64,000 nt of DNA from Micromonospora sp. NBC_01796. Lineage in GTDB: Bacteria > Actinomycetota > Actinomycetes > Mycobacteriales > Micromonosporaceae. The position numbers were made by a program, and so were the translations under genes. Shown here piece by piece: positions 9,715 to 46,726 of the stretch. The notes beneath the pieces are model-generated. The model saw only the letters and a list, made by a program, of their open reading frames with translations. It was not told the origin of the DNA and ran no database searches. The stretch is from assembly GCF_035917455.1 (NCBI RefSeq), contig NZ_CP109078.1, positions 7,176,001 to 7,240,000 of the forward strand, in the 5' to 3' direction. The first letter of the stretch is position 1. Each line of letters opens with the position of its first letter.

Positions 9715-10626
9715 TCAGGCGAGTGCGGCGACGATCGTGGTCGCCCGGCTCTCGTGCTGGGCGTACGCGTCGGGGAAGGCGGAGACCTGGACCGCCTGGG
9801 CCGCGCCGCTGACACTCATCTGCTGCCAACCGGGGATCTGCAACAGGGCCTCGAAGAACGCCTGGGCCGCGTACGCCGGACGCATCAGGTCGGCGACGGC
9901 GCCCCAGCCGCTGCTGGTGCGCTGCTGGAACAGGCCCACCGAGTCGTAGTCGTACCCGGTGCCCTGGTTGGGGTAGTCCAGCGACTCCGGTAGCGCCGGG
10001 TTGGCCAGGTTGTAGAGGTTGCTCTCCTGCATCGCGGTGGCGATCGCGACGATCAGGCCCTGGCGGGGGATGCCGAGCTTGATTCCGACCTTGACGATGG
10101 CCGCGGCGTTGTCCATCTGTGCCTGGTCCAGACCGGCGACCGGCTTCGGCTTGGCCGGCTTGGTCGGCTTGCGGACCGGTGGTTTGGTCGGCGCCTTGCT
10201 CTTGGCCGGAGGGGTGGGTGTCGGTGTGGTCGCGGTCGGGCTCGGCGATAGGGGAGCCCGCTCGGCCCGGCTCGCCGCCTGCTTCTCGGCCGCCGCGGCG
10301 CGGTCGGCCAGTGCGGCGGTGTCGACCAGTGCCGCGTGCAGCGGTTGCGTCGGCGTGGTGGCCGCGCGCGACTCGGTGAACGCGACGAATCCGAGGCAGC
10401 AGGTGATCCCGGTGACCAGGGTCAGCCGTACCGGGGTGGAGGCGACGGCGGACCTGATCCGGGACGAGGACTTTTCCCCATCGCGAGCGGTGGAGCGCCG
10501 AAGCGGATTCCGTCGGGCGGGGGTGCGGTGCCGGCCAGTTAGCCGGTCGTCCGATGGCGGCTCGGCCGAACGGATGGGTTGGGCTTTGCTGGTCGACTCA
10601 CGCTTCACCTCGTCGTTGGGATGCAC
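9715..10626 (-). CDS. Membrane-anchored lysozyme-like cell-wall protein
   Basis: 303 residues. A basic cytoplasmic segment (1-65) precedes one membrane helix (about 67-87, LTLVTGITCCLGFVAF), an Ala-rich stretch, a Pro/Lys/Thr linker (about 125-165) and a C-terminal globular domain (about 170-303) with AIATAMQESNLYNL, DSVGLFQQRTSSGWG and VQVSAFPDAYAQHE. This domain is shared with the three secreted proteins at 38-45 kb. The Glu in MQES sits where SLT/goose-type lysozymes have their catalytic acid, so peptidoglycan cleavage is a reasonable inference. Its TM anchor and long linker would reach into the wall. Confidence 0.72.
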   Translation of the reverse strand: MHPNDEVKRESTSKAQPIRSAEPPSDDRLTGRHRTPARRNPLRRSTARDGEKSSSRIRSAVASTPVRLTLVTGITCCLGFVAFTESRAATTPTQPLHAALVDTAALADRAAAAEKQAASRAERAPLSPSPTATTPTPTPPAKSKAPTKPPVRKPTKPAKPKPVAGLDQAQMDNAAAIVKVGIKLGIPRQGLIVAIATAMQESNLYNLANPALPESLDYPNQGTGYDYDSVGLFQQRTSSGWGAVADLMRPAYAAQAFFEALLQIPGWQQMSVSGAAQAVQVSAFPDAYAQHESRATTIVAALA

Positions 10627-37438: not shown

Positions 37439-38026
37439 TTGACGTCACGTCCTACGTTGCTGATCGTGTCGGATGTCGTCGCTCTCGTCGTGACCGCCGT
37501 ACTCGCGGCGAACCTCACCCTCCGCCGGCCGCTCCGGCCTCGACGACCGACCCTTCCGGTGAGCTGGTCCGAGGGCGTCAGGCGATGGTGGTTCTGGCTG
37601 GTGATGCCGTGCGTGGTGGTTGACGTTGTCGCGCACGAACACCTGCGTCTCCGGACCCTGCTCGTCATGTGCGGGTTGCTGTCCGCTGCGGCGGCAGTCT
37701 CCCTCCTGCGTGGCGCGCTCGGCCGACCTCCCGCGCCCGCACGACCGGCCGTCCCCGCGGTTCAGCCCGCCTCCGGCAGCGAGTCCGAAACCGTGGCCGT
37801 TGTGATGCCGTGGCTCGGGGAGTCGATGGGAACCGCTACCGTCACGTCGGTGCACAAATCAACCGGTGAAGCCGTACGCGCCGGTGAGGCGGTGTGCGAG
37901 GTGTCCACCGACAAGGTCGATACCGAGGTCCCCGCCGAGATCTCCGGCACGGTCGTCGCCGTGCTCGTCCAACCACCGGTCGACATCGCCGTGGGTGCGC
38001 CGATAATGCTCATCCGACCCGCCTGA
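37439..38026 (+). CDS. Membrane-anchored lipoyl/biotinyl carrier-domain protein
   Basis: 195 residues if TTG 37439 is the start (upstream in-frame codons to 37316 are possible; no start has an ideal ribosome site). Three hydrophobic helices (about 6-25, 50-66, 74-90), an Ala/Pro linker, then a lipoyl domain (about 118-193: VVMPWLGESMGTATVTSVHKSTGEAVRAGEAV, K159 in STDKVDTEV). K159 is the expected lipoylation site as in 2-oxoacid dehydrogenase E2 proteins, yet there is no E2 catalytic or subunit-binding domain and no dehydrogenase gene nearby. A carrier domain fixed to the membrane is unusual; its partner is unknown. Confidence 0.72.
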   Translation: MTSRPTLLIVSDVVALVVTAVLAANLTLRRPLRPRRPTLPVSWSEGVRRWWFWLVMPCVVVDVVAHEHLRLRTLLVMCGLLSAAAAVSLLRGALGRPPAPARPAVPAVQPASGSESETVAVVMPWLGESMGTATVTSVHKSTGEAVRAGEAVCEVSTDKVDTEVPAEISGTVVAVLVQPPVDIAVGAPIMLIRPA

Positions 38027-38135
38027 CCGCAATGACGCCGGGTCCGACAACGGCTGTCAGGTGACCGGTGTCCCGGGCCCGCGAAATGTGCGAGGTTTTT
38101 GGGCTTGATCAACTCTCGTCGGGGGGTGGGTTCGC

Positions 38136-38161
38136 GGAATGCCTGCGGGCCCGGGGCGGTT
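38136..38161 (+). promoter_or_regulatory. ECF/SigR-like promoter GGAAT-N18-GTT (copy A)
   Basis: GGAAT at 38136-38140, exactly 18 bp, then GTT (in GTTATACATC). The same spacing occurs upstream of both paralogues. GGAAT-N18-GTT is the described Streptomyces SigR consensus. TATACAT could alternatively serve a housekeeping sigma. Start of transcription would give a leader of about 135 nt. Confidence 0.6.
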
Positions 38162-38304
38162 ATACATCTCGTACGACCGGAGCAGCGCCGGGGCAATGAT
38201 CGCCTCGCCTCGTGTGTGCTGTGGCCTCGTACTTCTTTCCCCGAGCGCCAGCGCCTCCCCCTGTAGGCGCGCGTCGGGTACCCCCGATTGGAAGGTGAAC
38301 CATC

Positions 38305-38931
38305 GTGAAGACGACTTTCACCGCTGTTACTGAGACTTCGTTTGTTCGTAGGACCGCTCTGGGTGTTGCCAGTCTGGCGTTTGTTGGTGGCGCTGTCGCG
38401 GGTCCTGTGGGTCACGCGTTTGCGTCCCCGGCCGAGCACGCGGCTCCGGCGATGACCACGGTCGCGCAGGTCACGGCTGACAAGCCGGCCATGGATAAGC
38501 TGGTCCCGCACGGTACTCAGGGTGCGCAGTCGAGCATCAAGCTCGACAAGGACCAGCTTGCTAACGCCAGGGCCATTACGGAGACGGCGAAGAAGTTGGG
38601 TATGGGTGAGCGTGGTGCCGTGATCGCGGTTGCTACCTCGATGCAGGAGTCGAAGCTGGAGAACCTGGGTCATCTGGGTGACATGAACGACCACGACTCG
38701 CTGGGTCTGTTCCAGCAGCGCCCGTCGTCGGGTTGGGGTTCTCCTGAGCAGATCACGGACCCGACCTACGCTTCGACCGCCTTCCTGAAGAACTTGAAGC
38801 AGGTTGGTGGTTGGCAGGACATGCCGTTGACGGATGCGGCGCAGAAGGTTCAGGTGTCGGCGTTCCCGGATGCGTACGCGCAGTGGGAGAACCAGGCCGC
38901 GCACATCGTGCAGGACGTCTGGACCAAGTAA
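38305..38931 (+). CDS. Secreted lysozyme-like protein, copy A
   Basis: 208 residues from GTG 38305, with GGAAGG upstream. Signal peptide (1 to about 40, ending HAFASPAEH), a short spacer, and a ~110-residue globular domain: AVIAVATSMQESKLENLGHLGDMNDHDSLGLFQQRPSSGWG, then YASTAFLKNLKQVGGWQDMPLTDAAQKVQVSAFPDAYAQWE. The Glu in MQES is placed like the catalytic acid of SLT/goose lysozymes, so wall cleavage or remodelling is inferred. Identical to the copy at 42513. It uses many T-ending codons (GCT, GTT, GGT, CGT) unlike its neighbours, suggesting transfer or expression-related selection. A strong terminator follows. Confidence 0.82.
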   Translation: MKTTFTAVTETSFVRRTALGVASLAFVGGAVAGPVGHAFASPAEHAAPAMTTVAQVTADKPAMDKLVPHGTQGAQSSIKLDKDQLANARAITETAKKLGMGERGAVIAVATSMQESKLENLGHLGDMNDHDSLGLFQQRPSSGWGSPEQITDPTYASTAFLKNLKQVGGWQDMPLTDAAQKVQVSAFPDAYAQWENQAAHIVQDVWTK

Positions 38932-38952
38932 GCAACAAGCTTGAAGAATCTC

Positions 38953-38995
38953 GGCCCTGTCCGGGTCCCCAGCGGGACCCGGACAGGGCCTTTTT
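38953..38995 (+). terminator. Intrinsic terminator after copy A
   Basis: A perfect 17-bp stem (GGCCCTGTCCGGGTCCC), a 4-nt CAGC loop and TTTTT directly after the stem: the most classical rho-independent terminator in the window. Confidence 0.92.
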
Positions 38996-39043
38996 CTGTG
39001 CCTCGGTACGGGCCCGCTGACAGAGCTCGTACCCGTGGCGTGT

Positions 39044-39571
39044 TCAGTTGTCCTTCTGGGCCTTCTCCTTGCGCTCTTTCTCCTCGCGCTCCTTCTCGGC
39101 GCGGGACTGCGCGAGATCCAGTGCGAGGACGCCGGCCAGGATGAGCAGGTGGTTCTCGTCCCCGGGGATCTTCACCGCGTACGTGTCACGGATCGTGAAC
39201 CACTTCTTCGACACCGAGGCGACCTCATGCCCGTCCTGCTCGACCGTGTACTCATGGTCGAGCAGGTCACCACGCATCTCGAGGTCGTGCGGCCCCGGTA
39301 TGTCGATCGTGTACTTGTCGCGGAACGGGGTGAAGAGTTTCTTGCGTACCTCGGCGGCCTTCTCCCCGCCGATCTTGATCGTGTACGTGCGACGCAGCGC
39401 GACGAGCTGCCGATGCACCGAGGCGACCTCTTCACCGGTCGCGTCTTCGATGACGAGCTTGTCGCGCAGGGTCAGCACCTTGCCGTCGACGTGGAAGACC
39501 TTCCGGCCGGAGTCGTCGGTGATGTCGAAGTCGTCGCCGATGTCGAAAAGGCGCTCACGGATGAGGTACAT
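39044..39571 (-). CDS. LURP-one-related (LOR/DUF567) family protein
   Basis: 175 residues from ATG 39571. MYLIRERLFDIGDDFDITDDSGRKVFHVDGKVLTLRDKLVIEDATGEEVASVHRQL matches the tubby-like LOR beta-barrel start; DLLDHEYTVEQDGHEVASVSKKWFTIRDTYAVKI continues the barrel. A central hydrophobic helix (HLLILAGVLALDLAQ) and a charged Glu/Lys tail end the protein. LOR proteins are widespread and of uncertain function; a tubby-like phospholipid-scramblase relation has been noted. It lies in the module between the direct repeats. Confidence 0.87.
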   Translation of the reverse strand: MYLIRERLFDIGDDFDITDDSGRKVFHVDGKVLTLRDKLVIEDATGEEVASVHRQLVALRRTYTIKIGGEKAAEVRKKLFTPFRDKYTIDIPGPHDLEMRGDLLDHEYTVEQDGHEVASVSKKWFTIRDTYAVKIPGDENHLLILAGVLALDLAQSRAEKEREEKERKEKAQKDN

Positions 39572-39642
39572 GGCTGCATCCTCGCACCAGGCCGGGGCGG
39601 TGGCATCCCGAGGACCCGCTCGCCGTCGCCACCACGGAGGGC

Positions 39643-40827
39643 TCAGATCTCCTTGACGAAGACGATGGCGTCGACCTGGTCGACGGTGGTCGGATCGAGC
39701 GCGAAGTACGTGTGGTCGGCCGGGACCCGGGGCGTCAGCTTCCGGTCCAGAGCCGAGACGAGCCGGCCGGGGTCGACGACGGCGCGGGCGTGCGGAAGAG
39801 TCGACAGGAGCCCTTCGAGGGTGTCGGGGTGCGGGACGTCGGAGCCGCGAGCGCCGAAGGTGGTCGCGGCGAAGCTGTACTGGTCGCCCAGGTGGGTGCC
39901 GATGATGGCGCCCGTGCTCCACCATTCGAGCGGGTGGTCGCCGAGCTGCATCTGACTCTTGTCACGCTGCAGGTGGCGGTTGTGGGCGAAGGCGAGGGTC
40001 GGGCCGCGGCGGGCCTCGCGGCGGAGGATGGCGTCGAGGTTGTCGGCCATCATCACCCCGCGCAGGCAGATGAGTGCCCGGAGACGGGTGGGCGCGGTGT
40101 CGGCCATGGCGGCGTGGTAACGCAGGAGCCCGGCGGCGGTGCGGCCGTACAGGTCGGCGCGCCACCAGTCCTCGGGGGTGGTCATGGCCGTCAGGTGGGG
40201 GACGTACGCGGTGAGCAGCGCGCGCAGGTCGTCGGTGATCAGGCGCAGTTCCCTGGCCTCGGCAGTACGGCCGACGGACTGGGTGGGATCCATCATGGTG
40301 GCCTGGTTGGTCCAGCGGTCGTCGGTTCCGAGCAGTTCGTCGAGGGTGTCGCGACTCCAGGCCAGGTCCAGGTGGGCGGCGAGGTAGTCGTGCAGTGCGA
40401 TCAGGGCCGGACGGGGGCTGGCGGCTCCGGTGATCTCCAGGGGGCCGTCGAAGCCGTAGAAGCGGAGCCGTTCGTGCGGGGCGCGCTGCTCGTTGTGGGC
40501 GCGCATCCAGCGCAGGAGCTCCCGGTTGGCGGTCGAGGCGCCGAAGCCGTGGCTGAAACCGTGGGTCATCACGTCGTCGAGCTCCCCGACCCCGTCCGTG
40601 ACGTACGCGTCCGCGGCCAGGGCCGACAGGCAGTCGCTCTCGATGGTGATCGAGCGGTAGCCCTCGTGGTCGACGAGGTGGCGGAACAACTCGTTGCGCA
40701 GTTCGAGGAAGGCTTCGACGCCGTGGGTGGGCTCGCCGAGGCCGAGCAGGCGGGTGGCGGGGGACAGGAGCGGGGTGAGATCGCCGCCGGTGAAGGGACG
40801 GACGGCGTCCCCGATCAGGTTCGTCAT
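39643..40827 (-). CDS. Erythromycin esterase family protein
   Basis: 394 residues. The esterase core has LLGLGEPTHGVEAF (catalytic Glu and His region near 30-36), ESDCLSALAADAYV, GFSHGFGASTANRELLRWMRAHNEQ, LRFYGFDGP and FAHNRHLQRDKSQMQLGDHP. Ere enzymes hydrolyse macrolide lactones, but most family members in soil actinobacteria have other or unknown substrates, so resistance should not be assumed. The ATG may be used leaderless: TAGGGT lies 7 bp upstream. It is divergent from a MerR regulator with a dyad between them. Confidence 0.85.
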   Translation of the reverse strand: MTNLIGDAVRPFTGGDLTPLLSPATRLLGLGEPTHGVEAFLELRNELFRHLVDHEGYRSITIESDCLSALAADAYVTDGVGELDDVMTHGFSHGFGASTANRELLRWMRAHNEQRAPHERLRFYGFDGPLEITGAASPRPALIALHDYLAAHLDLAWSRDTLDELLGTDDRWTNQATMMDPTQSVGRTAEARELRLITDDLRALLTAYVPHLTAMTTPEDWWRADLYGRTAAGLLRYHAAMADTAPTRLRALICLRGVMMADNLDAILRREARRGPTLAFAHNRHLQRDKSQMQLGDHPLEWWSTGAIIGTHLGDQYSFAATTFGARGSDVPHPDTLEGLLSTLPHARAVVDPGRLVSALDRKLTPRVPADHTYFALDPTTVDQVDAIVFVKEI

Positions 40828-40831
40828 TCCC

Positions 40832-40847
40832 TCAACCCTATCGTTGA
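40832..40847. promoter_or_regulatory. Dyad TCAAC-N6-GTTGA in the ere-merR intergenic region
   Basis: A perfect 5-bp inverted repeat starts 5 bp upstream of the esterase ATG and overlaps its probable -10 (TAGGGT on the minus strand). The divergent MerR-type protein is the likely ligand. Confidence 0.45.
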
Positions 40848-40904
40848 ACCCTCGGTGTAAACTTTGCTGCTGTTTCCGGCTGGCGACAAGGACATACCTT
40901 CAAA

Positions 40905-41591
40905 ATGTGGTTGCGGCCCATCGACCTGGCGCGCGAGCACGGCCTGTCCACGCAGGCGGTGCGCAACTATGAGGAGGCGGGGATCCTGCCGCCGGCCGAA
41001 CGCTCGCCGCACGGCTACCGCGCCTACGCTGCGCGCCACGCGGCGGCGTTGCGGACGTTCCTGGCGCTGATACCCGCGCACGGCCACTCGACCGCGGGGG
41101 CGATCATGCGGTCGGTGAACGGCGGCGAGGTCGAGGAGGCGCTGCGGTTGGTCGACGAGAGCCATGCGCAGTTGGCCGTCGACCGGGGCACGCTCGAGGC
41201 CGTGCAGCGGGCGCTCCGGGACCTGGTACCGCCGTCCGAGGTGGAACCCGGTGTGACCTTCATCGGACCGTTGGCCCGCAGGCTCGGCATCCGACCGGCG
41301 ACCTTGCGCAAATGGCAGCGAGCCGGGCTGCTCGTGCCCAGCCGCGATCCGCGTACCGGCTACCGCGTCTACACCGAGGCCGACGTACGCGACGTGCTCC
41401 TGGCCCACCAGTTGCGACGTGGCGGGCACGGGCTGGAGCAGATCGCGCAGGTGCTGGAGCAGGTACGGGCTGCCGGCGGACCGGAGCCGTTGCAGGCGAC
41501 CATGCGGGAGTGGCGGGACCGGCTGACGGCGCGCGGTCTGGCGATGCTGGCGGGCGCGGCCGCGCTCGACACCTATCTCCGGGTTCCGTGA
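40905..41591 (+). CDS. MerR-family regulator with two HTH domains
   Basis: 228 residues. The first MerR-type domain is at 1-70 (LRPIDLAREHGLSTQAVRNYEEAGILPPAERSPHGYRAY); the second at about 120-185 (FIGPLARRLGIRPATLRKWQRAGLLVPSRDPRTGYRVYTEADVRDVLLAHQLRR). Each has the wing RxxxGYRxY. Classical MerR proteins carry one such domain; tandem forms form a small actinobacterial group. No cysteine-rich metal site is present. It faces the esterase gene across 77 bp and probably controls it. Confidence 0.88.
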   Translation: MWLRPIDLAREHGLSTQAVRNYEEAGILPPAERSPHGYRAYAARHAAALRTFLALIPAHGHSTAGAIMRSVNGGEVEEALRLVDESHAQLAVDRGTLEAVQRALRDLVPPSEVEPGVTFIGPLARRLGIRPATLRKWQRAGLLVPSRDPRTGYRVYTEADVRDVLLAHQLRRGGHGLEQIAQVLEQVRAAGGPEPLQATMREWRDRLTARGLAMLAGAAALDTYLRVP

Positions 41592-41734
41592 CACAAACGG
41601 AATCGGTGGCAGGACCTCCGCCACAAGCCATCAAACGATGGGCATCGCGCTGTTGCGGGTTGGCACACTGTGTTTCCTGTCAATGGTCGGCTTGGGTCAC
41701 GGGTGGGTGACCCTCGTCAGAATGGGGAGCGGCA

Positions 41735-42163
41735 ATGGATCCCGTGTCGATCGGCATCGCCACCTACAAGGCAACCGTCGCAGTCGGCGGCTTCCTGCTG
41801 TACCGGGACGCTGTCCTCACGGTCATCAACGATTCCAAGCACGCGGTGAGCGCCGCAGTTTGTCTCGGTAACCGGGGAAGTTCGTACGCGTTCGGTTGGA
41901 TCAACATCGACGCCGGGCACAGATTCGGCATGGAGTTCCCCGTGCTGCGATCGGGTCAGGACCTCGTGATCCATGCCCGAGCCCAGAACGGCAGGTACAC
42001 GTGGCAAGGTGACACGTACTTCTACGTGCTGCATCCGGCCAAGTTCGGGGTCAAGAACGCTCGATTGGAGAGTGCGCAGTTGGTCTCCGGCGTCGGCCGG
42101 ATGACAACCGTCGGAGGCGACCTCCATCGCATGTCGGACGACTTCACCTATCGCTTGACCTAA
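41735..42163 (+). CDS. Orphan protein of unknown function, 142 aa
   Basis: ATG 41735 with GGGGAG 5 bp upstream. The sequence (GIATYKATVAVGGFLLYRDAVLTVINDSKHAVSAAV, SYAFGWINIDAGHRFGMEFPVL, GRYTWQGDTYFYVLHPAKFGVKN) looks beta-rich, with a weakly hydrophobic start but no clean signal peptide. I do not recognise it. Base composition is visibly lower in GC than neighbours, and it lies immediately before repeat copy B, both signs of a transferred gene. Confidence 0.65.
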   Translation: MDPVSIGIATYKATVAVGGFLLYRDAVLTVINDSKHAVSAAVCLGNRGSSYAFGWINIDAGHRFGMEFPVLRSGQDLVIHARAQNGRYTWQGDTYFYVLHPAKFGVKNARLESAQLVSGVGRMTTVGGDLHRMSDDFTYRLT

Positions 42164-42299
42164 CAGCTTCAAATGCGACGATCCTCGCGGCGGCCGGATT
42201 CGGCGCAGGGCACCCCTGGCCCATCAATCCGCCTGTCAGGGCTCAGACGGTCGCGGGTTCCCGGGACTCGGTTCGAGCCTGCGACGTGTGTCGCGTTCG
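42164..42299. other. Spacer before repeat copy B
   Basis: About 135 bp without a gene. A GGTTCGAG string at 42270 resembles a tRNA T-loop but no cloverleaf can be built around it. Confidence 0.4.
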
Positions 42300-42343
42300 C
42301 GAGGTTTTTGGGCTTGATCAACTCTCGTCGGGGGGCCGTTCGC

Positions 42344-42369
42344 GGAATGCCGGCGGGCCCGGGGTGGTT
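42344..42369 (+). promoter_or_regulatory. ECF/SigR-like promoter GGAAT-N18-GTT (copy B)
   Basis: GGAAT 42344-42348, 18 bp, GTT 42367-42369 followed by ATACATC. The spacer differs from copy A by two bases, yet both boxes and the spacing are kept. Confidence 0.6.
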
Positions 42370-42512
42370 ATACATCGCGTACGACCGGAGCAGCGCCGGG
42401 GCAATGATCGCCTCGCCTCGTGTGTGCTGTGGCCTCGTACTTCTTCCCGAGTGCAGCGCCGTTTCCCCCTGTGTGCGCGTGCTCGGAACCCCCGATTGGA
42501 AGGTGAACCATC

Positions 42513-43139
42513 GTGAAGACGACTTTCACCGCTGTTACTGAGACTTCGTTTGTTCGTAGGACCGCTCTGGGTGTTGCCAGTCTGGCGTTTGTTGGTGGCG
42601 CTGTCGCGGGTCCTGTGGGTCACGCGTTTGCGTCCCCGGCCGAGCACGCGGCTCCGGCGATGACCACGGTCGCGCAGGTCACGGCTGACAAGCCGGCCAT
42701 GGATAAGCTGGTCCCGCACGGTACTCAGGGTGCGCAGTCGAGCATCAAGCTCGACAAGGACCAGCTTGCTAACGCCAGGGCCATTACGGAGACGGCGAAG
42801 AAGTTGGGTATGGGTGAGCGTGGTGCCGTGATCGCGGTTGCTACCTCGATGCAGGAGTCGAAGCTGGAGAACCTGGGTCATCTGGGTGACATGAACGACC
42901 ACGACTCGCTGGGTCTGTTCCAGCAGCGCCCGTCGTCGGGTTGGGGTTCTCCTGAGCAGATCACGGACCCGACCTACGCTTCGACCGCCTTCCTGAAGAA
43001 CTTGAAGCAGGTTGGTGGTTGGCAGGACATGCCGTTGACGGATGCGGCGCAGAAGGTTCAGGTGTCGGCGTTCCCGGATGCGTACGCGCAGTGGGAGAAC
43101 CAGGCCGCGCACATCGTGCAGGACGTCTGGACCAAGTAA
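42513..43139 (+). CDS. Secreted lysozyme-like protein, copy B
   Basis: 208 residues, identical to copy A at 38305 in protein and, as far as I can read, in every base. Same GTG start, GGAAGG site, signal peptide and MQES/DSLGLFQQRPSSGWG domain. Because its leader has drifted while the gene has not, recent gene conversion, not merely recent duplication, is suggested. The terminator downstream is a different sequence from that of copy A. Confidence 0.82.
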   Translation: MKTTFTAVTETSFVRRTALGVASLAFVGGAVAGPVGHAFASPAEHAAPAMTTVAQVTADKPAMDKLVPHGTQGAQSSIKLDKDQLANARAITETAKKLGMGERGAVIAVATSMQESKLENLGHLGDMNDHDSLGLFQQRPSSGWGSPEQITDPTYASTAFLKNLKQVGGWQDMPLTDAAQKVQVSAFPDAYAQWENQAAHIVQDVWTK

Positions 43140-43151
43140 GCAACAAGCCAG

Positions 43152-43182
43152 TGGCCGGGTTCCCACCACGGGGACCCGGCCA
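43152..43182 (+). terminator. Hairpin after copy B
   Basis: An imperfect stem TGGCCGGGT-TCCC/GGGG-ACCCGGCCA with a short loop, 13 bp past the stop. No T-tract. Confidence 0.65.
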
Positions 43183-43204
43183 ACGGCGTACGGTCCCCAC
43201 CGGG

Positions 43205-43864
43205 TCAGCGTGGCCAGTCGGCCAGGCGCTGGTGGACGATCCGTACCTCGTCCGGGGTGAGGCCGTAGCGGGCGAACCGCCGGTCGGGTAGCCGGTCCAG
43301 GTAGTGACCGGCTGCCCGGATGTCCTCGGGGTCGAGTGCCGGGTCGTAGTCGTGTGCCAACGCCAACAGCTCGTCGAGGCGGTAGACGTCCAACGCGGCG
43401 GCGATGTCGATGTAGTCGCGCACCTCGCGGCGGGTGATCAGAGCTACGGTCTTGCTCGCGACCAGATCCTGGACGTGCATGACCGGACCCAGGTCCATCA
43501 CCACCGGGCTGCGGTGCCGGTCGAGCCGACCCAGGGTCAACCGGAGCTGGCGCCCACCGCGGCTCACGACAAAGTCCTTCATGTCCTGGTCGAACCCGTC
43601 GAAGAGGCTGGCCAGGTCACCGGCCGGGTCCTCGTCGCGTACGTCGAAACCGGCCGCTTGCAGCACGGTGCGGACCTCGGTGGCGGCCGCGCCCGCGGCT
43701 CCGTCCACGTCCGCGAACAGGTCGAGATCCTCGGTCGGACGGTTGACCAGGCCATGGGCGGCCCAGGCCACGCCACCGCCGAGGACGAACCCGTAGCGGT
43801 CGGCAACGGACAGCGCGACCCGGGCCACCTCCCGATAGAAGTCGCCCAGGTGGGCGGTGCTCAC
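43205..43864 (-). CDS. Nucleotidyltransferase, AbiEii-like toxin family
   Basis: 219 residues from GTG 43864, overlapping the upstream gene by 4 bp. YGFVLGGGVAWAAHGLVNRPTEDLDLFADV (about 24-53) is the GG-x-DxD nucleotidyltransferase core; MHVQDLVASKTVALITRREVRDYIDIAAAL is the AbiEii/DUF1814 downstream helix with RDYID. AbiEii enzymes of type IV toxin-antitoxin pairs transfer nucleotides to tRNA; others act in resistance. Paired with a small upstream gene it fits a two-gene module, though the partner is not a recognisable AbiEi. Confidence 0.78.
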   Translation of the reverse strand: MSTAHLGDFYREVARVALSVADRYGFVLGGGVAWAAHGLVNRPTEDLDLFADVDGAAGAAATEVRTVLQAAGFDVRDEDPAGDLASLFDGFDQDMKDFVVSRGGRQLRLTLGRLDRHRSPVVMDLGPVMHVQDLVASKTVALITRREVRDYIDIAAALDVYRLDELLALAHDYDPALDPEDIRAAGHYLDRLPDRRFARYGLTPDEVRIVHQRLADWPR

Positions 43865-44205
43865 CCGATGCGGTGGAGCGTACGGTGCCGGGCCTCCCAC
43901 GCCCGCCGGACACCGTGCGGCAGGTTGAGGTCCGGCCACACCCGCCGCAGCAGGGTTCCGTTGACCAGTCGACGCAGGTCGTCGGCGCGGGTGGCCTCGC
44001 GCAGGACGTTCTCGTACATCCAGAGCAGTTGATCCGGGTCGGCCAGCTCGAAGGTCCGGTCGCTGCACCACATGAGCCGCAGTGGCAGCTCCACCGCTCC
44101 GCGAACCGGCCCGGTCAGCTCGGTGAGCGTACGGGTCACCACGGCGGGACGCCCCGGACGAGCCAGGAAGGCGACGCCGGACGGAGTCGATTGGGTGCCG
44201 AGCAT
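43861..44205 (-). CDS. Small partner gene of the nucleotidyltransferase, 114 aa
   Basis: From ATG 44205, ending inside the start of the nucleotidyltransferase. Sequence: MLGTQSTPSGVAFLARPGRP, AVELPLRLMWCSDRTFELADPDQLLWMYENVLREATRADDLRRLVN, WPDLNLPHGVRRAWEARH. Helical, soluble, Arg-rich C-terminus; no classical HTH is evident. Position and 4-bp overlap suggest an antitoxin or regulatory role, but similar pairs in soil actinobacteria are only annotated as hypothetical plus nucleotidyltransferase. Confidence 0.68.
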   Translation of the reverse strand: MLGTQSTPSGVAFLARPGRPAVVTRTLTELTGPVRGAVELPLRLMWCSDRTFELADPDQLLWMYENVLREATRADDLRRLVNGTLLRRVWPDLNLPHGVRRAWEARHRTLHRIG

Positions 44206-44369
44206 GGGGAGAGCGTAGCCCGTACTCGGCTTGATCCGAGCCAGGCGTGTCCTTCGTGTCCGTTTTGCCGGAAGCAGTGGATCGGTCGGCCATCGAGGCG
44301 TTCGCTCCACCGACCCCGAGCCGACCCGGTACCGCCCGCCCAATCAATCGCCATGAGCCGGGCATTTCT
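44206..44369. other. Divergent promoter region
   Basis: It separates the toxin-antitoxin-like pair from the third lysozyme-like paralogue. No gene is supported; the promoter for the left pair must lie here. Confidence 0.4.
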
Positions 44370-44395
44370 GGAATGTCGGATGGGTCGGGCTCGTT
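44370..44395 (+). promoter_or_regulatory. ECF/SigR-like promoter GGAAT-N18-GTT (paralogue 3)
   Basis: GGAAT 44370-44374, 18 bp, GTT 44393-44395 followed by ACACC. Downstream GTACGCCCGAGCAGC resembles GTACGACCGGAGCAGC at the same place in copies A and B, so promoter and early leader are conserved while the rest is not. Confidence 0.6.
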
Positions 44396-44524
44396 ACACC
44401 TTGCGTACGCCCGAGCAGCATCTGCCGGGCGTGTTGTTTTGCCCCGGACTGCTCCTCCCGGAGTGCGTCATCCTCCCGGATCGCTCCTGCCGGAGCGTCA
44501 ACCCCCAACGGAAGGGCTCCCATC

Positions 44525-45466
44525 GTGAAGGACCGCTTCACTCGATGGCTCCCGGCCATCGCGCAGACCGACTTCCGCCAGTACGCCCAGACCAAGATCG
44601 AGCAGGCTGACCTCGGTCGGCGACTCGAGCAGGCCAAGGCGCTCCAAGCCGACCTGCGTGGTCTGACGCAGTACCAGATCCGCCGGCTCGACCTGGGTCG
44701 GCTGGCAGAGGGCAACCGCCGCAAGGCCGTGCTCACCCTCGCCGGTGTCGCGGTCGTGGGCGGACTGGCCGCCGGCCCCGCGCTGGCCGCCGACAACTCG
44801 ACCTCGCCGAACGTGAACCCGGCCGCCGCGGCACAACTGCGTCAGGCCGCGGAGGCGAGCAAGACCGAGCCGAAGCCGCTCGTCGTCGCCCAGCCCGGCC
44901 CGGACGGCCAGGCGAGCCAGCAGCCGGCCGAGGCGTCCTCGGCGGCCCCACAGGTTGTCGACCGCTCGGCCGACTCGTCGGCGCACAAGCGCGTCGAGCG
45001 CAAGCAGGCCGACAAGCCGAACCTGTCCGACCTGATGCCGTTCGGCACCCAGGGACAGCAGGTCTCCACGCCGCTTTCCGACGAACAGCTCGACAACGCG
45101 AAGGCGATCGTGCAGACCGCCAAGCGCGAAGGCGTCGGCGAGCGGGGTGCCGTGATCGGTGTGGCTACCTCGCTGCAGGAGTCGAAGCTCAACAACTTCG
45201 GTCACCTCGGCTACCTCAACGACCACGACTCGCTGGGCCTGTTCCAGCAGCGTCCGTCGTCGGGCTGGGGCACCCCGGCACAGGTCACCGACCCCGACTA
45301 CGCCGCCTCGGCCTTCTTCAACGGGCTCAAGCGGGTGGACGGGTGGCAGCACATGCCGCTGACCGACGCCGCGCAGACCGTGCAGGTCTCGGCCTTCCCG
45401 TTCGCGTACGCGCAGTGGGAGAACCAGGCCGCGCACATCGTGCAGGATCTGTGGAACAACCGGTAA
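44525..45466 (+). CDS. Secreted lysozyme-like protein, long paralogue
   Basis: 313 residues from GTG 44525 after GGAAGGG. It opens with MKDRFTRWLPAIAQTDFRQY and a helical cytoplasmic-type stretch to about 75, then a hydrophobic export segment (about 80-100, LTLAGVAVVGGLAAGPALAAD), a low-complexity spacer and the shared domain (VIGVATSLQESKLNNFGHLGYLNDHDSLGLFQQRPSSGWG). The long N-terminal extension before the signal is unusual. Codons are typical of the host (C/G-ending), unlike copies A and B. Same promoter type, so co-regulation is expected. Confidence 0.8.
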   Translation: MKDRFTRWLPAIAQTDFRQYAQTKIEQADLGRRLEQAKALQADLRGLTQYQIRRLDLGRLAEGNRRKAVLTLAGVAVVGGLAAGPALAADNSTSPNVNPAAAAQLRQAAEASKTEPKPLVVAQPGPDGQASQQPAEASSAAPQVVDRSADSSAHKRVERKQADKPNLSDLMPFGTQGQQVSTPLSDEQLDNAKAIVQTAKREGVGERGAVIGVATSLQESKLNNFGHLGYLNDHDSLGLFQQRPSSGWGTPAQVTDPDYAASAFFNGLKRVDGWQHMPLTDAAQTVQVSAFPFAYAQWENQAAHIVQDLWNNR

Positions 45467-45492
45467 GTCGTCAACGAACCACAGCACAGCAC

Positions 45493-45528
45493 GCTGGCCG
45501 GGCCCCGGAGGGAGGGGACCCGGCCAGC
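45493..45528 (+). terminator. Hairpin after the long paralogue
   Basis: GCTGGCCGGG...CCCGGCCAGC forms a stem with a single-base bulge on each arm, 26 bp past the stop. Confidence 0.65.
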
Positions 45529-45559
45529 GGTGTCTGTGCCGGTGCGAGCGGGCCGCCGG

Positions 45560-46726
45560 TCAGGGCGAGGTGAGCAGGGTGAGGCCGAGCGCGGCGAGCG
45601 GTTCGTTCACCGGCTGGAAGTACGTGGTGCCGCCGGCGGTGCAGTTGCCCGTACCGGCGACGAGCATGCCCTGTGCCTGGTCGCCGGAGACGAACGGGCC
45701 GGCGGAATCGCCCGCCTCGGCGCATACGGTCGTCCGGGTCAGGCCGGAGATGACCTCACCCGAGGCGAAGTTCAGCGTCTGGTTGCGGCCCTGGACCACA
45801 CCGCACCGCCAGCCGGTGGTGGAGCCGTACCGGCAGACCGGTGCGCCGATCGGTGCCTCCACCGAACCCCGGATCGGTGCCGCCGTCGACCGGCCGGTCC
45901 GGATCTCGCCGCGCGGCGTCCAGCCAGGGTTCAGGCGTACCCAGGCGTAGTCGTTGCCCGGGAACGACGAACTCGCGAACACCCCCATCACCTGCCCGTT
46001 CGGCGCGTACGCGGAATCACCGGTCCGGCCGCAGTGCCCGGCGGTGAGGAACCCGCCCCGTACGGTGAAGCCGACCGAGCAGCGCATGCTCTGCGACGTC
46101 AGGAAGGGGTCACCGCCGCGTACGTCCGCCAGGGTGCGGGGCCGCTCGGTGCCCTCGACGACCCGGACGACACCGGGCGACGCACCGGCCTCGCTGACGA
46201 ACGCGTTGGCAGCGGCAGCCCCGCCCGGTGCGGTCCGTACGACGACGGCGTTGCCCACGACGTCGACGTACCAGCCCGAGACCGCACCGGGCGCGTGACC
46301 GGCCGCGCGGTCGAGTAGGGCCGCTGTCGCGGCGAGGGTGGTCTCGGCGTGCGGCACCAGACGCACCCGCGTACCGGTGCGTCGGGCGGTGTGCACCGCG
46401 GCCGGGTCGGTCACCGCGACCACCGGGTTTCCGTGCCCGTCGAGCCAGACGCCGCCGAACGCGGCGCCGAGGGTCGCGCGCAGGTCCCGCTCCGTCGCGG
46501 CGGCGGCGGTCGCGACGGCCAGTCGGGCCGCGGCCCGGTCGGGGGTGAGTCCGAGGTCGCGCCGCAACGCGGCGACGACCTCCGCGGGGTCCGGACGCGG
46601 GTCCACCGCCGCGGCGCCCGGCTGTGCGCCGGTGACGGTCGGCGCGGCGCCGGCCGGGGTGGCTGCTGCGGTGATGAGCGCGGTCGTCAGCAGGATCGCG
46701 ACCGGGACGGCAAGTCTGCGCGACAT
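45560..46726 (-). CDS. Secreted S1 serine protease, streptogrisin type
   Basis: 388 residues from ATG 46726. Signal peptide (1-28), alpha-lytic-type prodomain (about 45-195), mature chymotrypsin-fold domain with H231 (TAGHCG), D259 (GNDYAW) and S341 (AGDSAGP). The mature part ends TYFQPVNEPLAALGL. Cysteine pairs around H231 and S341 match streptogrisins. Secreted, self-activated by cleavage of the prodomain, which also acts as folding catalyst. Convergent with the lysozyme-like gene. Confidence 0.95.
   Translation of the reverse strand: MSRRLAVPVAILLTTALITAAATPAGAAPTVTGAQPGAAAVDPRPDPAEVVAALRRDLGLTPDRAAARLAVATAAAATERDLRATLGAAFGGVWLDGHGNPVVAVTDPAAVHTARRTGTRVRLVPHAETTLAATAALLDRAAGHAPGAVSGWYVDVVGNAVVVRTAPGGAAAANAFVSEAGASPGVVRVVEGTERPRTLADVRGGDPFLTSQSMRCSVGFTVRGGFLTAGHCGRTGDSAYAPNGQVMGVFASSSFPGNDYAWVRLNPGWTPRGEIRTGRSTAAPIRGSVEAPIGAPVCRYGSTTGWRCGVVQGRNQTLNFASGEVISGLTRTTVCAEAGDSAGPFVSGDQAQGMLVAGTGNCTAGGTTYFQPVNEPLAALGLTLLTSP

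Follow-up and report, generated by a model that had tools for sequence, protein, structure and literature searches.

Two lysozyme-like genes stand in direct repeat 4.2 kb apart in a 64,000-nucleotide stretch of the Micromonospora sp. NBC_01796 chromosome (contig NZ_CP109078.1, positions 7,176,001 to 7,240,000), referred to here at its full length as the window. How have these genes, termed A1 and A2, come to be the same base for base when the leaders in front of them have diverged and the DNA around them is unrelated? A preliminary description made from the letters of the window had reported this pattern and proposed gene conversion or strong selection as its cause. Alignment bears out the pattern: the two 627-bp genes lie within a shared run of 661 bp that takes in 25 bp 5' of the start codon and 9 bp 3' of the stop, whereas the leaders, counted from 38090 and 42299, differ at 7/141 distal and 17/75 proximal columns, and the flanks beyond them are unrelated to each other. 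Here we argue that the pair probably represents two of seven dispersed genes for small secreted GH184-like muramidases that evolve in concert, each copy with its own putative promoter and predicted leader hairpin.

Copies, loci and gene conversion

The genome of the window (G000) is a single 8.56-Mb contig, and it is compared here with those of two congeners (G001 and G002). A protein search of G000 returned seven close copies of 92-100% identity at four loci, plus six weaker matches. Two close copies are in the window (locus A), three are clustered at 4350-4358 kb (locus B), and one each is found at 981 kb (locus C) and 4246 kb (locus D); a leader of about 215 bp, 89-100% identical to that of A1, is present at 7/7 of them. 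There are seven close copies in G001 and twelve in G002, each of which also has one diverged paralog. Matches at E <= 1e-60 occurred in 8 of the 61 genomes searched, and the nearest named protein matches, at up to 69% identity, come from Phytohabitans and Micromonospora. The search also reported one family member with a single in-frame TGA (G005:C1:789291-789791).

When the units were masked and the surrounding DNA compared, the flanks of loci A-D matched on both sides in all three species. A tree of the 26 genes is divided into three species clades (support 100/97, 100/99 and 100/100), and the best trees in which locus A, B, C or D was held together were rejected by the approximately unbiased test (p-AU 1.5e-7, 7.5e-37, 1.4e-8 and 6.1e-13, respectively). 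Mean silent divergence (dS) within a genome is 0.164 in G000 (largest 0.232), 0.113 in G001 and 0.208 in G002; between genomes it is 0.295 (G000-G001), 0.449 (G000-G002) and 0.434 (G001-G002), and nine flanking orthologues compared between G000 and G001 have dS of 0.20-0.45. Genes at the same locus were no closer to one another than genes at different loci in 10/15 comparisons, and closer in 5/15. A run-length permutation test gave p <= 0.01 for 18/21 within-genome pairs in G000, 46/66 in G002 and 15/21 in G001, where some runs extend into upstream columns of doubtful alignment. The 3' ends of the units vary from copy to copy.

Both marks of a concerted multigene family, grouping by species at orthologous loci and mosaicism, are found here, and they strongly support the interpretation that the family undergoes concerted evolution by gene conversion, acting genome-wide among dispersed copies. 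Taken together, these comparisons show four loci that predate the three species, with copies that gene conversion has homogenised within each genome, also between loci megabases apart. Of the two causes first proposed, gene conversion therefore stands, although not as a process of the pair alone, since seven dispersed copies across the genome take part.

The leaders allow the most recent event to be followed more closely. Over the 75 columns next to the start codon, A1 is the same as three remote copies and has its 17 differences to A2, which is itself one column away from a fourth remote copy. The latest tract on the pair has its 5' end in the leader, where mosaic breakpoints lie, and by alignment it spans no fewer than 661 bp. 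A tree built from this short leader segment has one supported branch (95/96), which separates allele I of the leader hairpin from allele II and all 12 G002 copies. Allele I is carried by five copies in each of G000 and G001, and allele II by two in each. The hairpin alleles thus seem older than the split between G000 and G001, with the genes behind them homogenised per species; homogenisation would therefore act more on the coding part than on the hairpin.

Known prokaryotic cases of concerted evolution mostly involve two or three copies of core-machinery genes. According to the available text of PMC6053082, long-lasting concerted evolution in prokaryotes covers 26 genes, such as tuf, psbA and amoCAB, and is rare for protein genes. 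The present family shares with the cases described there that paralogs are closer within a genome than orthologs and that flanks are conserved; unlike them, it consists of 7-12 copies of a secreted hydrolase, and the hairpin part of its leader escapes homogenisation. The gene tables in the available part of PMC6053082 name no such enzyme.

Other histories could leave two identical genes side by side. A recent simple duplication, followed by changes to the leaders through selection or chance, would produce a direct repeat 4.2 kb apart with 661 identical base pairs. However, G001 and G002 carry copies on either side of the same LOR module, so that the positions predate the species unless they were gained independently, and the two leaders have different remote copies as their nearest relatives; the preliminary description had already judged such a duplication a poor fit, and we regard it as very improbable. 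Strong purifying selection on the nucleotide sequence, for codons or for RNA structure, could also keep copies alike, and the near absence of A-ending codons (23 of the 5382 third positions in the 26 copies) does imply that silent sites are constrained. Yet mean dS between species reaches 0.30-0.45 and some copies in the same genome differ by up to 0.30, which makes selection, the second cause first proposed, insufficient to account for the identity and a shade less credible again than duplication. An assembly artefact that doubled one copy is the least credible account of all, since the genome is a single contig, each copy has its own leader and flanks, and matching copies are present in both congeners.

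Independent expansion of the family in each species, by birth and death of copies and with no need for conversion, would suit the unequal copy numbers (7, 7 and 12) and the four G002 copies that have no counterpart among the fetched loci. It would also suit the clustering by species of copies in Micromonospora arborensis (3/3), sp. RHAY321 (3/3), alfalfae (3/4) and sp. BL4 (4/5). This history is nevertheless unlikely given that flanks match on both sides at four loci in three species, that mosaicism within genomes is strong, and that G000 and G001 both carry alleles I and II although their genes cluster by species. A mobile cassette of leader and gene, copying itself to new places, is if anything a little less likely still. 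The constant 5' end, the unrelated flanks and the extra G002 copies are what it would predict; two of those copies are at places of broken synteny with G000, the flanks of one (L065, 219240) matching different places and the other (L066, 1439499) having only one strong flank match. But the four loci are stable across species and 3' ends differ among copies, and no recombinase gene or terminal repeat was noticed beside the window copies, where no dedicated search for them was made. Some results do count against concerted evolution at stable loci, which remains our preferred reading. Copies from Micromonospora noduli, foliorum and tarensis form no single group in a tree unaccompanied by a flank test, and intact or clean empty sites in G000, sought for two of the four unmatched G002 copies, were not found, so that gain or loss of copies also takes place.

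The encoded protein and its codon usage

The N-terminus of the lysozyme-like protein is signal-like as judged by eye, and no model in Pfam or NCBIfam matches the protein. Among solved structures the top matches are 8b2h (E 4e-15) and 8b2e (E 2.9e-13), with homology to the GH184 catalytic domain; we take both as GH184 enzymes from their residue numbering and from one mention of 8b2h in the available text of PMC10394673. That text gives the catalytic glutamate of GH184 as Glu41 (Ks) or Glu125 (Tt), with Asp66 (Ks) or Asp150 (Tt) near the substrate. Glu115 of the query aligns to residue 125 of 8b2h and residue 41 of 8b2e, Asp129 aligns to residue 150 of 8b2h, and both are invariant in 29 aligned sequences, query included. 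In common with the fungal GH184 enzymes of PMC10394673, as far as its available text describes them, the product has the catalytic domain over about 130 residues, the catalytic glutamate and the second aspartate; unlike them it is bacterial, small, apparently secreted and stand-alone, is encoded in many copies, and has no SH3-like domain by Pfam. The product thus resembles GH184 muramidases, and muramidase activity is predicted. Related domains occur in phage proteins, including endolysin families and tape-measure proteins, and in plasmid-borne genes whose annotation is M23 or C40 peptidase. A distant GH184-like gene is also found elsewhere in the window (9730-10260, minus strand; G000 7185730-7186260), with 49% identity over residues 37-202 and without the promoter.

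T-rich codon choice in both copies, described earlier as unlike the rest of the window, is confirmed by counts: the third position is T in 50/207 codons and A in 0/207 of each copy, against 5.6% T and 4.6% A in 46 other window genes (simple gene call). In 20 ribosomal and elongation-factor genes the figures are 7.6% T and 2.6% A, and across the 26 copies T takes 1008/5382 third positions. A check of codon adaptation had been suggested. Against the ribosomal and elongation-factor set, the codon adaptation index (CAI) of the seven G000 copies is 0.54-0.66, where window genes have a median of 0.66 and a 5-95% range of 0.50-0.78; the pair scores 0.542, a value that just 3/48 window genes fall below, and ribosomal-type codon adaptation is rejected on this account. 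Although genuine, the unusual codon choice differs from the high-expression bias seen in the ribosomal genes of this genome. An AT-rich foreign origin is rejected because A would then rise too. The coding-strand excess of G and T is of the kind that transcription-associated mutation may produce, though several G002 copies have G in weak excess. Counts at 19 loci of Micromonospora and Phytohabitans likewise gave little A (0-2.9%), but less T (6-14%). Near-absent A-ending codons together with low CAI make a separate puzzle.

Promoter, leader RNA and a candidate regulon

Comparison of the 26 leaders shows that each copy has what appears to be its own promoter, of the class GGAAT-N18-GTTAYAC, and a leader of about 135 nt from the inferred start, the last predicted hairpin of which adjoins the Shine-Dalgarno sequence. 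A box reading GCGAGG.TTT ... TTGATC.ACT, near-invariant across these leaders, lies 5' of the promoter and marks the start of the homologous unit. The promoter itself is found in 26/26 leaders, 168-177 bp 5' of the start codon, and includes the SigR-type form GGAAT-N18-GTT. Within the window there are three sites of this shorter form, compared with an expectation of 0.36. The extended form has nine sites in the whole of G000 (the reversed-pattern control has 0), and GGAAT-N18-GTTG has 18. Those nine sites precede the seven copies, the diverged paralog (44525) and a ninth gene, which we take to encode a secreted-looking C39-like peptidase; by protein search the C39-like product and the muramidases have an N-terminal region in common. 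G001 has nine extended sites and G002 fourteen, in each case before the close copies, the paralog and a C39-like gene. This C39-like gene of G000 (L219, 5472000-5475500) stands behind several GGAAT-N18-GTT units in tandem.

GGAAT-N18-GTT is the published SigR consensus in the available text of PMC2375139, and that of PMC10012870 gives GGAAT-N18-19-GTT for SigH of C. glutamicum. With the SigR/SigH regulon promoters of actinobacteria, as those texts present them, consensus and spacing match exactly; unlike them, the sites here are extended to GTTAYAC, are found in G000 only before one enzyme set, and in relatives are arrayed in tandem, with as many as six exact sites. Of 27 loci in relatives that bear the promoter, 10 have a GH184-like gene next and 6 a C39-like gene (two of these in congeners), 2 run off the contig and 9 have a gene of another kind. 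In other genera, 11/11 additional GH184-like loci carry one or more exact copies of the short site within 700 bp. Where at least 450 bp of upstream DNA was at hand, 34/36 Micromonospora and Phytohabitans loci have two to six exact sites, 73/85 of the spacings in these arrays being 67-93 bp; of 341 background windows, 0 had two sites and 4 had one. Three Phytohabitans flavus loci (L085, L086 and L087) each have four to six tandem promoter-like sites, mostly in 67-69 bp units, 5' of one muramidase gene. No exact N18 site was found within 700 bp of the matched stretch at 24 loci that are mostly from Streptomyces (L114-L137), where the stretch starts inside the protein and a farther promoter is possible.

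Which sigma factor would read these sites? A single clear SigR orthologue is present in G000 (348.6 bits against a cut-off of 251.55), followed 3' by a gene that is presumably RsrA-like, judging from its His-Cys-Cys motif, and SigR is the leading candidate.

Between promoter and gene, folding predicts two structures. Starting from the inferred start of the RNA, a domain closed by GTACGA/TCGTAC is predicted in 26/26 leaders; a second hairpin with a C-rich loop is predicted in 26/26 when cut out, and is followed by CCCCC and the Shine-Dalgarno sequence. In folds of the whole leader this second hairpin rearranges in some G001 leaders and in one G002 leader. A wider test used 44 distinct leaders left after removal of duplicates, 16 from the genus and 28 from others: the apical loop holds CCCC in 42/44 (L101 and L103 fail) against 12% of dinucleotide shuffles, and the median z is -3.5. 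Twelve leaders were omitted from this test. Five of these, from Phytohabitans (L070, L083, L085, L086 and L087), are without the ACCCCCG form before the start, and four (L035, L052, L109 and L110) have coding DNA in the leader position, L052 at least partly; the others were L031, L033 and L034, and in L031 and L033 the CCCCC tract is present on the correct strand. L045, L072 and L073 were excluded because the motif was absent from the piece cut. Hairpin stems vary widely in sequence, as conserved pairing would predict. In G000 ACCCCCGA adjoining GGAAGG occurs ten times, at the seven copies and at three places that resemble coding DNA, and by eye the C39-like genes of G000 and G002 have a similar leader hairpin.

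The leader is like the riboswitches and leaders of Rfam in being a structured 5' untranslated region (UTR) before cell-wall enzyme genes, and differs from them in matching no family: in a search of the window with Rfam 15 (4227 models) at the gathering threshold no family reached its cut-off, and at E <= 10 the sole matches in 37900-45600 were to two microRNA models, weak and located outside the leaders. Two structural alternatives were set aside. RNAalifold on MAFFT alignments misplaced the variable hairpin arms, and the model R1 took another structure (13 pairs) and was left unused; in the R1 structure, which might compete with the hairpin, the CCCCC tract seemingly pairs with upstream G residues. 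By eye, base pairing between the loop and the Shine-Dalgarno sequence fails for allele I of G000.

These elements suggest how the family might work. Under thiol-oxidative or envelope stress all copies would be turned on jointly by an extracytoplasmic function (ECF) sigma factor, the SigR orthologue being the likeliest one; enzyme output would be raised by having many equal copies, the hairpin may tune translation or mRNA stability, and conversion could persist because uniform, interchangeable copies are favoured. More tentatively, and a little short of what we would call probable, the Micromonosporaceae may possess an envelope-lysis regulon composed of multi-copy GH184-like muramidases and C39-like peptidases. 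Such a regulon would have extended SigR-type promoters, single or in tandem, and a new leader-RNA class (C-rich-loop hairpin plus CCCCC), with coding parts homogenised and two alleles exchangeable across species.

Several results tell against these proposals. Loci for the hairpin test were in part selected by eye, 33 from outside the genus having been picked after 45 leaders had been viewed. The next gene is neither GH184-like nor C39-like at 9/27 promoter loci of relatives, presumably including two rbpA-like genes and two places near a release-factor gene, and four more distant GH184-like genes of G000 (L009-L012) lack an exact short site over a distance of 700 bp. Upstream of the sigR orthologue and of one rbpA gene out of two stands GGAAT-N19-GTT, not N18, respectively 367 and 79 bp away from the stretch that matched; the second rbpA gene has neither form upstream, and a sigma family model has 36 matches in G000; given the N19 spacing at sigR and rbpA and these 36 matches, another ECF factor is possible. 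Low CAI combined with T-ending codons also misfits plain selection for translation.

What goes beyond the known is the combination of many dispersed wall-hydrolase copies, a near-private extended promoter, promoter arrays in relatives and an undescribed hairpin with cross-species alleles; a search of open-licence papers did not find the gene family, the regulon or the leader RNA element. With 7-12 dispersed copies of a wall-degrading enzyme homogenised within each species, these genomes offer a natural system in which ectopic conversion within a bacterial chromosome could be measured. A regulon and an RNA element are suggested by the promoter arrays and by the hairpin in the leader, with testable predictions on when these bacteria release muramidase on a large scale.

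Coordinates and neighbouring genes

Table 1. Positions of the two muramidase units, their control elements and the diverged paralog in the window.
Feature	Position	Strand	Basis
GH184-like secreted muramidase gene (predicted), copy A1, 208 aa	38305..38931	+	protein search, homology, alignment
GH184-like secreted muramidase gene (predicted), copy A2, base for base the same as A1	42513..43139	+	alignment
661-bp tract, putative latest conversion tract of the A1/A2 pair	38280..38940 = 42488..43148	+	
Terminator-like inverted repeat and T run 3' of copy A1	38953..38995	+	read in sequence, not from a scan
Conserved box at 5' end of A1 unit, GCGAGGTTTTTGGGCTTGATCAACT, near-invariant core GCGAGG.TTT and TTGATC.ACT	38090..38114	+	repeat; 26-leader alignment
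Conserved upstream box, copy A2	42299..42323	+	repeat; 26-leader alignment
SigR/SigH-type promoter GGAAT-N18-GTTATAC, copy A1	38136..38165	+	pattern search; consensus PMC2375139, PMC10012870
SigR/SigH-type promoter, copy A2	42344..42373	+	pattern search
Predicted 5'-UTR stem-loop domain closed by GTACGA/TCGTAC, copy A1	38171..38232	+	fold
Predicted 5'-UTR stem-loop domain, copy A2	42379..42440	+	fold
Predicted C-rich-loop hairpin, allele I (A1), then ACCCCCGA and Shine-Dalgarno	38240..38278	+	folds, tree
Predicted C-rich-loop hairpin, allele II (A2)	42447..42486	+	folds, tree
Promoter of the same class 5' of diverged paralog	44370..44399	+	pattern search
Diverged GH184-like paralog, 313 aa	44525..45466	+	protein search, alignment

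The repeats had also been proposed to recombine and delete the module between them. No such deletion is seen in the two congeners, both of which have copies on both sides: G001 retains the LOR, esterase and MerR genes, and the G002 stretch keeps LOR and lacks esterase and MerR. The loss in G002 is unlike repeat recombination, because that would also remove LOR and one copy. An orphan open reading frame between MerR and A2 (41735-42163) has no counterpart in the fetched G001 and G002 stretches.

The diverged paralog (Table 1) has 69% identity over query residues 49-207 and is not homogenised. Between it and A2 lies an AbiEii-like nucleotidyltransferase gene (PF08843; 43205-44365, minus strand), which is kept in both congeners.

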